In this document: in pieces, positions 54,545-57,589 of the stretch
How positions within the stretch are numbered: the stretch's first letter is position 1
Layout: every line of letters begins with the position of its first letter
Program-made: the position numbers and the translations under genes
Source: Anaerolineales bacterium
GTDB lineage: Bacteria > Chloroflexota > Anaerolineae > Anaerolineales > Villigracilaceae
Assembly: GCA_030583885.1 (NCBI GenBank)
Contig: CP129480.1
Coordinates: forward strand, 434,001-498,000
Length of the DNA stretch: 64,000 nucleotides
Direction of reading: 5' to 3'
Notes under the pieces: model-generated
Seen by the model: only the letters and a program-made list of their open reading frames with translations
Databases searched by the model: none
What the model was told of the DNA's origin: nothing

Positions 54545-56347
54545 ATGACCATTTCCGCACCCCGCTGGGATATGACCAACGTCTATCCTTCGCTTGATTC
54601 AAAGCAATTCAAGAATGCCGTCAAGAAATACACGTCTGCGCTGGATGAACTGGAAACCTTCTTCCAAAAAGCCGGCAAAGCCAATGCAAATACCGAGCCG
54701 AAGAAACTTGGCATACTGCTCGGCGAATCCGTGGACCGTTTCAACGCACTTTTTGAACTTTCGAACACCCTGGATCCCTACATCTATTCCTTCATCTCCA
54801 CCGACTCGCGGGACAAGGAGGCCATGCGCATCCTTTCCGAATTCGAACAAATGTCAGTGCAGGCGAACATCCTCAACACCAAATTCCGCGCCTGGGTCGG
54901 AAAGCTCGGCAAGCCCGCCGTCAGGAAAGCTGCGAAGACCAACCTTTCAGCAAAGGCACACGAATTCGCCCTGCTCGAAAACGCGGAACAATCCAAATAT
55001 CTGATGAGCGAAGCGGAGGAAGCCCTCGCCGCCGAACTGACCTTGAGCGGGGGCAACGCCTTCGGAAAATTGCAGGGGACGATCACTTCGCAGCTCAGCG
55101 TGGACTTTGAGCTGGACGGCACGCCCCAGAAGATGCCCATGCCCGCGCTGATCAATCTGCGCTCGCATCCCGACGAAGCCACCCGCCGCCGCGGCTATGA
55201 AGCGGAGAATGCCGCCTGGGAGGGGGTCAAGGAAACATTGACGGCCTGCATGAACGGCGTCAAGGGTGAGACGCTCGCGCTCGATAAAAAGCGCGGACGC
55301 GAGGATGCCGTCCACGCCTCGCTCGACTTTGCCCGCATCGACCGCGCCACATTGGATGCCATGCTCGGCGCGATGAAGGATTCCTTCCCGATGTTCGAGC
55401 GCTACTTCAAACATAAAGCCAAACTGCTTGGCAAGGAAAAACTCGCCTGGTGGGATCTCTTCGCGCCGATGGGCAGGACCGACAAGGTCTATTCATGGGA
55501 CGAGGCGCGCGATTTCATCGTCAACAACTTCAACAAGTTCTCCCCCGAACTTGGGACATTCGCCAAACGCGCCTTCGATAACAACTGGATCGATGCCGAA
55601 CAGCGCGACGGCAAGCGCGGCGGCGCGTTCTGCATGGGCGTGGAAGCCGTGAAGGAAAGCCGCATCCTCAGCAACTTCGACGGCTCGTTCGACCAGGTCA
55701 GCACGCTGGCGCATGAGCTCGGCCATGCCTTCCACAATGAGTGCGCCTATCAGGCGGGCAAGACCCCGCTCCAGCAGCAAACGCCGATGACCCTGGCGGA
55801 AACCGCCTCCATCATGTGCGAGACCATCGTCACCGAAGCCGTGCTGGAGCAGGTCACCGACCCGCAGGAGGTCCTGGCCGTGCTCGAAGCGCAATTGAAC
55901 AACGCCTCACAGGTGGTCGTGGATATCTACTCACGCTACCTCTTCGAGAAGGAAGTCTTCGAACGCCGCGCCCAGTCCGAACTCTCCGCAGATGATCTCA
56001 ACGACATCATGGAACGCGCGCAGAAGGCCTCCTACGGTGAAGGACTGGATGGGAAGTATCTGCAAAAATTCATGTGGACGTGGAAACCTCACTACTACAC
56101 CAGCGGCTTCTCGTTCTACAACTATCCCTATACCTTCGGCCTGCTCTTTGCCACAGGTTTGTATGCCATCTACCAGAAACGCGGCGCGGAGTTCGTACCG
56201 GAGTACAAGAAACTGCTCGCGTCCACGGGCGAAGCGCGCGCGGCGGAACTCGCCGACCAGTTCGGCATCAACATCCGCACCAAAAAATTCTGGACAGACA
56301 GCCTTGCCATCATCGGCAGGCGTGTGGACCGCTACTGCCAGTTGTAA
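54545..56347 (+). CDS. pepF: M3-family oligoendopeptidase F
   Basis: A 600-aa cytoplasmic zinc peptidase that degrades short peptides. The zinc site is H390-E391-L-G-H394 in STLAHELGHAFHNE, with the third ligand Glu in MTLAETASIMCETIV. PHYYTSGFSFYNYPYTFGLL contains the substrate Tyr/His residues typical of PepF. The N-terminal half is the helical lobe (YIYSFISTDSRDKEAM). AAGGAG precedes the ATG, and a TATACT lies upstream. A 14-bp inverted repeat follows the stop. Confidence 0.92.
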   Translation: MTISAPRWDMTNVYPSLDSKQFKNAVKKYTSALDELETFFQKAGKANANTEPKKLGILLGESVDRFNALFELSNTLDPYIYSFISTDSRDKEAMRILSEFEQMSVQANILNTKFRAWVGKLGKPAVRKAAKTNLSAKAHEFALLENAEQSKYLMSEAEEALAAELTLSGGNAFGKLQGTITSQLSVDFELDGTPQKMPMPALINLRSHPDEATRRRGYEAENAAWEGVKETLTACMNGVKGETLALDKKRGREDAVHASLDFARIDRATLDAMLGAMKDSFPMFERYFKHKAKLLGKEKLAWWDLFAPMGRTDKVYSWDEARDFIVNNFNKFSPELGTFAKRAFDNNWIDAEQRDGKRGGAFCMGVEAVKESRILSNFDGSFDQVSTLAHELGHAFHNECAYQAGKTPLQQQTPMTLAETASIMCETIVTEAVLEQVTDPQEVLAVLEAQLNNASQVVVDIYSRYLFEKEVFERRAQSELSADDLNDIMERAQKASYGEGLDGKYLQKFMWTWKPHYYTSGFSFYNYPYTFGLLFATGLYAIYQKRGAEFVPEYKKLLASTGEARAAELADQFGINIRTKKFWTDSLAIIGRRVDRYCQL

Positions 56348-56438: not shown

Positions 56439-56900
56439 ATGAAAAAACGCAAAACCCTTTTAGCGGTATCGATCCTTTTGCTTACCGCCCTTGCCTGCAA
56501 TGTCGTTTCACCGCAGGCGGAATCGCCCGCGCCGCCCGCCCAACCGCAAAACAACACCATCCTGCAGTCTGAAGACGAAGCTCCGCGCATCAGCGTGCAG
56601 GATTCGAAAGCCGCGCTTGACGCCGGCCAGGCCGTCATCGTCGATGTGCGCAGCGCGGAATCCTACGCCGCAAACCATGTTGCAGGCGCCATTTCGATTC
56701 CCCTGCAAAATTTCGAGAACAACATCAACAACCTTTCGCTCGAAAAAGACCAGTGGATCATCACCTATTGCACCTGACCGAACGAACATACGAGCGCCCG
56801 TGCGGCGTTCCTTCTGATCAACAACGGCTACACCAACGTCCAGGCCATGCTTGGCGGATTCGAAGCCTGGCTCAATGCAGGCTACCCCGCCCAACCGTAG
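56439..56900 (+). CDS. Rhodanese-domain lipoprotein with in-frame TGA (candidate selenoprotein)
   Basis: A 153-residue frame if TGA 56775-56777 is read through. It has a signal sequence and lipobox (LLTALACNVVS, Cys about residue 17), then a single rhodanese domain: AVIVDVRSAESYAANHVAGA, the active loop at 108-116, and NVQAMLGGFEAWLNAGYP. The loop reads ITYCT, then TGA as residue 113, then PNEHTSARAAFLL. Homologues I know with this loop have YC.CPNE, so the TGA stands where a Cys is expected. Homology continues in frame on both sides to a normal TAG. A hairpin about 20 nt after the TGA could be a SECIS. The alternative is a Cys-to-stop pseudogene. GGAGAG precedes the ATG. Confidence 0.8.
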
Positions 56901-57278
56901 ATGAAAATCCTCTCGATTGACCATGTGCAAATCGCAATACCGCAGGGCGGGGAAGGGAAGGCCCGCGGGTTCTATATCAATGGGCTTGGTTTCATCGAAA
57001 TACCAAAGCCGCCCGAACTCGCCAAACGCGGCGGCGCGTGGTTCCAGTCTGGAAATGTACAACTGCACCTCGGCGTCGAAGCGGATTTTCGCCCCGCGCG
57101 CAAGGCGCATCCCGCCTTCATCGTGGATGACCTTGAAGGCTTGATTGCAAAGATCCAGTCGGTTGGATCGGTTGGATACGAAACCGACACATCCCAGCCG
57201 CCGCTGGATGGATACAAACGCGCGCACGTCTTCGACCCATTTGGAAATCGCATCGAACTGATGGAAAAAATCAGATGA
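56901..57278 (+). CDS. Glyoxalase/VOC-superfamily protein
   Basis: A 125-aa VOC-fold metalloprotein-like sequence: MKILSIDHVQIAIPQGGEGK with a first metal-site His, GNVQLHLGVEADF, and FDPFGNRIELME with the last Glu ligand. Such domains act as dioxygenases, isomerases or resistance proteins; this one cannot be placed. Its ATG directly follows the TAG of the rhodanese gene, and it overlaps the cupin gene by 4 nt, so the three are likely co-transcribed. Tight coupling to the frame after the TGA is further evidence that the rhodanese frame is used. Confidence 0.85.
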   Translation: MKILSIDHVQIAIPQGGEGKARGFYINGLGFIEIPKPPELAKRGGAWFQSGNVQLHLGVEADFRPARKAHPAFIVDDLEGLIAKIQSVGSVGYETDTSQPPLDGYKRAHVFDPFGNRIELMEKIR

Positions 57279-57589
57279 CAACCCTGCCTTGCGTCACACC
57301 CTGGGCTGGTTCTGAGCCCCCGACACGCATTACGCTCCGGCAGTTGATGGCGGACGAAGGTCTTGATCCATATTCATGGTCAAATGGACCGTATGATACC
57401 TACTCCGCACACAAGCACAGTTTTGACAAAGTCATCTACGTTGTGCAGGGAAGCATCACCTTCGGCTTGCCCGAACTGAATCAATCGCTGACATTGAAAG
57501 CAGGAGACAGATTGGATTTGCCCGCAGGAGTGTCGCATAACGCCACTGTCGGCGCGGAGGGTGTGGTCTGTTTGGAAGGTCATATATAA
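57275..57589 (+). CDS. Small cupin-domain protein
   Basis: A 104-aa single-domain cupin. Motif 1 is approximated by AHKHSFDKVIYVVQGSITFG with His, His and Glu-like positions partly replaced, and motif 2 is AGDRLDLPAGVSHNA. The end (TVGAEGVVCLEGHI) closes the barrel. The start ATG overlaps the VOC stop (ATGA). Function unknown; small cupins often bind a metal or a small acid. Confidence 0.8.
   Translation: MTTLPCVTPWAGSEPPTRITLRQLMADEGLDPYSWSNGPYDTYSAHKHSFDKVIYVVQGSITFGLPELNQSLTLKAGDRLDLPAGVSHNATVGAEGVVCLEGHI

Follow-up and report, generated by a model that had tools for sequence, protein, structure and literature searches.

In the genome of an Anaerolineales bacterium (one contig of 4,403,799 bases, 99.8% complete), a rhodanese gene contains an in-frame UGA codon that, with strong support from comparative genomics, is almost certainly decoded as selenocysteine (Sec). 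The gene lies in the window, the whole stretch of 64,000 nucleotides that was analyzed, and its product is very probably a selenorhodanese, predicted to be exported and membrane-anchored, with a mechanism of the Cys-x-Sec (CxU) type suggested by its motif. The first-pass annotation of this DNA had put the gene forward as a candidate selenoprotein, a proposal now borne out by the presence of the decoding machinery, the retention of the TGA in homologues, and a covarying hairpin at the expected distance.

The reading frame continues without a break across the TGA up to a TAG (56898-56900) that abuts the ATG of the next gene (56901), as had been annotated and as was seen again when the sequence was re-read, and the TGA, located in the loop YCT-U-PNE, is the only stop inside it. 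The translation reads MKKRKTLLAVSILLLTALAC...WIITYCT up to the TGA and PNEHTSARAAFLLINNGYTNVQAMLGGFEAWLNAGYPAQP from the TGA to the TAG. The Pfam rhodanese profile matches the protein on both sides of the TGA with a score of 62.2 bits (cut-off 22.2, E-value 6.7e-17), and the PDB fold matches correspond to the rhodanese fold, so that both score and fold place the protein in the rhodanese superfamily. An open stretch of 40 codons past the TGA is expected by chance in about 15% of cases and is weak evidence if taken alone; the reading across the TGA becomes decisive because homology spans the TGA and the TGA itself is conserved. A reassigned genetic code was rejected, since TGA is the normal stop of 13 of the 45 long open reading frames (ORFs) in the window. 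The features of the locus are listed in Table 1.

Table 1. Positions in the window of the selenorhodanese gene, its elements and its neighbors
Feature	Positions	Strand	Details or basis
M3 family oligoendopeptidase, upstream neighbor	54545..56347	+	Conserved neighbor of window-type orthologs
Selenorhodanese gene	56439..56900	+	153 aa, TGA read as Sec113 (predicted), TAG included
N-terminal signal, lipobox-like TALA-C20	56439..56498	+	By eye; probable lipid anchor
Rhodanese domain, residues 53-146	56595..56876	+	Pfam PF00581, AlphaFold model, PDB fold matches
Cys111 codon, probable rhodanese nucleophile, strand end	56769..56771	+	AlphaFold, BH2092 alignment, TGA in UxU relatives
TGA codon, predicted to be read as Sec113	56775..56777	+	Homologue conservation
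SECIS-like hairpin GAGCGCC-CGTGC-GGCGTTC	56792..56810	+	Conserved core 56794-56808
Glyoxalase-fold protein, downstream neighbor, ATG abuts TAG	56901..57278	+	Sequence and Pfam
Cupin-like protein	57275..57589	+	Below Pfam cut-off; near 10 related loci

Conservation of the TGA was found both within the genome and among its relatives. Two further rhodaneses of the same genome carry a TGA at the same loop position, namely C1:35249-35716 (YCTUPSEESSARAA) and C1:2327755-2328225 (YCTUPSEELSARAA). A profile search of 121 related genomes gave 76 matches, of which 75 contain exactly one TGA, the exception being a plain rhodanese with the loop VVVCRSGNRS (L167), and the TGA is present in each of the 57 distinct orthologs read from fetched loci. 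Neither Cys nor any other sense codon was found at the site among the 57, and Chloroflexota yielded no ortholog with Cys. The search for relatives, of which the named ones are Anaerolineales MAGs, was not biased towards TGA, because it used the loop back-translated with Cys codons together with a peptide outside the loop (QWII). The relatives keep the same TGA and show no decay elsewhere, which had been named beforehand as a check on the proposal. A Cys-x-Cys counterpart occurs outside the phylum, on a Caballeronia plasmid (YCSCPNE, 36% identity), in agreement with the earlier suggestion that the TGA replaces a Cys; the hairpin motif described below is absent from the corresponding place of that gene.

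The region downstream of the TGA is constrained at the level of nucleotides as well as protein. In a set of 48 non-redundant orthologs, synonymous codon choice is frozen from position +6 to position +10 past the TGA, where the same codon is used in 92-100% of same-amino-acid pairs against 25-51% expected, and the freezing is back near background by +12; the ACC directly 5' of the TGA is invariant too. The frozen stretch, AGC GCC CGT GCG GCG, is able to form a hairpin composed of GAGCGCC (56792-56798), the loop CGTGC (56799-56803) and GGCGTTC (56804-56810), whose core GCGCC-CGUGC-GGCGU lies 18 to 33 nt downstream of the TGA. A hairpin within the distance range of bacterial SECIS elements had already been annotated here and proved to be real, although its pairing differs slightly, being GAGCGCC with GGCGTTC at 56792-56810 and not the stems placed at 56790-56808.

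Folding energy of the single sequence compared with shuffles gave only modest values (z of -1.1 for 40 nt and -2.5 for 31 nt), and, as this is unconvincing alone, covariation and codon-null tests were used. In a set of 84 distinct sequences that extends to more distant Chloroflexota, every loop keeps the GU (84/84), even where Arg CGT is replaced by Gly GGT, and all five stem pairs are preserved in 79. When synonymous codons were resampled with the proteins fixed, 2000 runs gave on average 0.6 intact stems and never more than 5 among the 84. Two-sided changes were seen at four of the five stem pairs (55 distinct rows); none of 500 shuffles was as good on any of five measures, and slid pairings were worse. 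Relatedness inflates these covariation counts, but independent changes nonetheless occur among distant members. In one relative (L132), the stem is rewritten as UCAGCC-CGUGC-GGCUGA with Ser-Ala-Arg-Ala-Ala kept. A pattern combining the TGA and the hairpin has exactly three matches in the host genome, which are the three rhodaneses, and the reversed control pattern has none. An Rfam search over the hairpin returned no SECIS and no other meaningful match. Bacterial SECIS elements have been described as carrying a guanosine in a small apical loop (PMC1088965), and the structure at 56792-56810, just after the UGA, has such a loop; judged from these comparisons, it is almost certainly a bacterial SECIS.

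The genome also contains the components required for Sec insertion. The four that the first-pass annotation had named as a check are all present: a tRNA-Sec with TCA anticodon (C1:1382792-1382884), selA (C1:2279754-2281082; 541.6 bits, cut-off 267.9), selB (C1:2952894-2954777; 356.3 bits, cut-off 242.25) and selD (C1:3730448-3731374, L042; 354.8 bits, cut-off 125). As selD has an in-frame TGA of its own near its start (CAGU), a second gene of the genome points to Sec decoding, and the host SelD would be a selenoprotein too. selA was detected in 50 of the 52 genomes with the selenorhodanese gene and in 51 of the 69 without it (Fisher p 0.001, with genomes counted as independent and kinship ignored). 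Of the two gene-bearing genomes in which selA is missing, one (G033) has tRNA-Sec and the other (G055) is only 53% complete.

Two readings that dispense with selenium can be set against this evidence. That the TGA is an ordinary stop, leaving a truncated rhodanese, a pseudogene or a sequencing error, draws on the standard reading of the codon and on the other ORFs of the window that end with it, and on nothing more. It is in effect refuted, with a probability close to zero, by the frozen synonymous codons, the covarying hairpin, and the conservation of the TGA together with the protein downstream of it in all 57 distinct orthologs, a conservation on which a pseudogene was rejected; a sequencing error was rejected because the same TGA recurs in many independent assemblies. 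Readthrough with another amino acid, for example by Trp suppression or programmed readthrough, is scarcely more credible. Protein conservation by itself indicates only that the codon is read through, which this explanation accommodates, whereas a hairpin located 18-33 nt downstream whose loop GU never varies, a full Sec machinery, co-occurrence with selA, and the Cys at this site in the out-of-phylum homologue all argue for Sec. In the preferred reading, SelB and tRNA-Sec would decode the UGA as Sec, guided by the hairpin at 56792-56810.

The genomic context and the N-terminus distinguish two types of the gene. An AC ending of the signal recurs in window-type orthologs and corresponds, in the window protein, to the TALA-C20 seen by eye. 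The upstream M3 oligoendopeptidase gene falls in a gene cluster represented in 26 of the loci compared, and the cupin-like gene in one represented in 10. The paralog type has a single hydrophobic N-terminal anchor in place of the lipoprotein-like signal. Its immediate downstream neighbor encodes another rhodanese lipoprotein, whose loop contains one Cys (VYCLSGG or VYCLTSG) and whose cluster covers 11 loci. Such a gene directly follows each of the two paralogs of the host genome (L032:7716-8174 with VYCLTSG and L031:5314-5751 with VYCLSGG), and its product may act together with the paralog; the window copy has no such gene downstream. In both types, the N-terminal sequences suggest that the rhodanese domain is situated outside the membrane. 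By inspection, genes around the paralogs appear copper-related (SCO1-like, PCuAC-like, cupredoxin-like) or CDF/ArsR/Feo-like, and the window copy is adjoined by M3 peptidase, glyoxalase-fold and cupin-like genes.

Within the active loop, the roles of Cys111 and Sec113 can be considered from the predicted structure and from alignment. The AlphaFold model (mean pLDDT 85.9, mostly above 90 in the domain) places a strand at residues 106-110, followed by Cys111, Thr112, Sec113 (modelled as Cys) and a helix from 114, and the family profile alignment sets YC on the YC of BH2092 (PDB 3nhv/3o3w), with the same longer loop and no gaps. Because Cys111 follows the strand in the model and aligns to the YC of BH2092, it is most likely the rhodanese nucleophile, with Sec113 at +2, in a register of which we are reasonably but not fully confident. 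The TGA had been annotated as occupying the active-site Cys position, which is imprecise in that the catalytic Cys is most likely the retained Cys111, while the Cys-x-Sec arrangement described in the same annotation was correct. As a tentative proposal, slightly less probable than its alternatives taken together, the motif may support a redox-coupled CxU mechanism, consistent with the one-residue gap between Cys and Sec in the active loop and with the presence of Sec at position 111 in UxU relatives. In such a mechanism, Cys111 at the end of the core strand would take up sulfane sulfur from thiosulfate, polysulfide or persulfide, Sec113 would resolve the Cys persulfide (or other oxidized Cys) to give a Cys111-Sec113 selenenylsulfide, and a reductant would recycle the latter, so that the enzyme outside the membrane would act as a persulfide or thiol reductase and not as a plain sulfurtransferase.

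Among selenoprotein readings, the reverse assignment, with Sec113 as the nucleophile and Cys111 as the resolving residue, is rather unlikely but deserves consideration. Sec usually takes the place of the attacking residue, and position 113, counted back from the helix, falls on the Cys site of classical six-residue loops; set against this are the profile alignment, in which Cys111 matches the YC of BH2092 with equal loop length, and the location of Cys111 directly after the strand in the model. It is more doubtful still that the Cys-x-Sec pair serves to bind or sense a metal in place of sulfur chemistry. The seemingly copper-related or CDF/ArsR/Feo-like genes near the paralogs would fit such a role, yet the neighbors of the window copy include no metal gene and the fold is that of a rhodanese. 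Sulfur chemistry initiated at Cys111 is the reading preferred here.

A scan of 400 genomes across the phylum revealed related selenorhodaneses in other Chloroflexota groups. In six deeper relatives (L142, L143, L144, L148, L154 and L159), the loop reads Y-U-T-U-P or Y-U-A-U-P (UxU), with the positions of both Cys111 and Sec113 encoded by TGA codons six nucleotides apart and a single hairpin downstream, as in the CxU genes. tRNA-Sec is present in all five UxU genomes with a completeness of 93% or more, and none was found in the sixth (G241), which is 82% complete. In a tree of 108 columns, which is poorly resolved, the UxU sequences do not form one clade; the motif may have been gained or lost repeatedly, a suggestion that long branches make unsure. 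The UxU motif is absent from PMC13188914 by word search. The chances appear about even that these genes represent a widespread, surface-exposed and essentially Sec-only Chloroflexota family missed by Sec/Cys-pair searches, in which some lineages would be double-Sec and diselenide-capable, with two UGAs served by one SECIS. Other rhodanese architectures were also observed. Three related exported Chloroflexota rhodaneses (L146, L147 and L168) lack both Cys and Sec in their loop, which reads AYGDAERPES, and are possibly catalytically altered, and one 587-aa open frame (G000:C1:2314739-2316226, L012-L016) contains four successive rhodanese domain matches. In the host genome, C1:1923586-1923855 (L024) and C1:2295586-2295834 (L025) are rhodanese domain fusions, whose partner regions appear from their sequences to be a membrane transporter of the YeeE/YedE type and an enzyme resembling cysteine desulfurases.

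These genes are of interest for annotation as well as for selenium biochemistry. Ordinary gene calling would truncate them at the TGA, and a published Sec/Cys-pair procedure needs at least two Cys homologues (PMC1088965), which the Chloroflexota selenorhodanese family largely lacks; for these two reasons, part of the Chloroflexota selenoproteome may be unannotated. An exported CxU or UxU rhodanese raises the question, open to a clear test, of whether selenium allows a sulfurtransferase fold to work outside the cytoplasm as a reductase of persulfides or disulfides. In addition, the small and strongly conserved hairpin offers a clean SECIS model for Chloroflexota, including cases in which one hairpin apparently serves two close UGAs.

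Apart from general reviews, a literature search found no paper naming this Chloroflexota family, and comparison with known systems places it near several described rhodaneses. The single-domain thiosulfate sulfurtransferases GlpE and PspE share the superfamily with the window protein but have a shorter loop and no Sec, and the window protein scores below their NCBIfam cut-offs. BH2092 of Bacillus halodurans (PDB 3nhv, 3o3w) shares the fold, and its active loop (YCWGPACNGA) has the same greater length and aligns in register, although it is not a selenoprotein, lacking Sec and having Gly at the +2 residue. Among rhodanese selenoproteins, TsoB (NF045694), a rhodanese/DsbD fusion-like selenoprotein, likewise has a rhodanese domain with Sec but is a 572-position fusion with UxxxxU spacing, against which the window protein scores 35.4 bits (cut-off 805). 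Rhodanese-like forms 1, 2 and 4 (PMC13188914) also place one Sec in the loop region of a rhodanese domain, whereas in their motifs, UxxS and UxxG, the Sec is not preceded by a Cys at -2. The best named match (E-value 4e-25) is NF041203, rhodanese_LYCAU, an NCBIfam "rhodanese-related (seleno)protein" family that corresponds to the already known "Rhodanese-like form 3, CxU" (PMC13188914). The Cys-x-Sec rhodanese loop is common to both, as YCTU in the window protein and LYCAU in the family. At 87.9 bits (75.1 and 69.9 bits for the two paralogs), the window protein falls short of the curated cut-off of 115 bits and is not a member by that test, and the cut-off was reached in none of the 400 Chloroflexota genomes. 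The 126-position model of NF041203 is too short to include a long signal, whereas the window protein appears to be exported. The window protein probably works like this family, and its presumably exported form represents a variant of the known CxU rhodanese kind, the CxU motif itself not being new.
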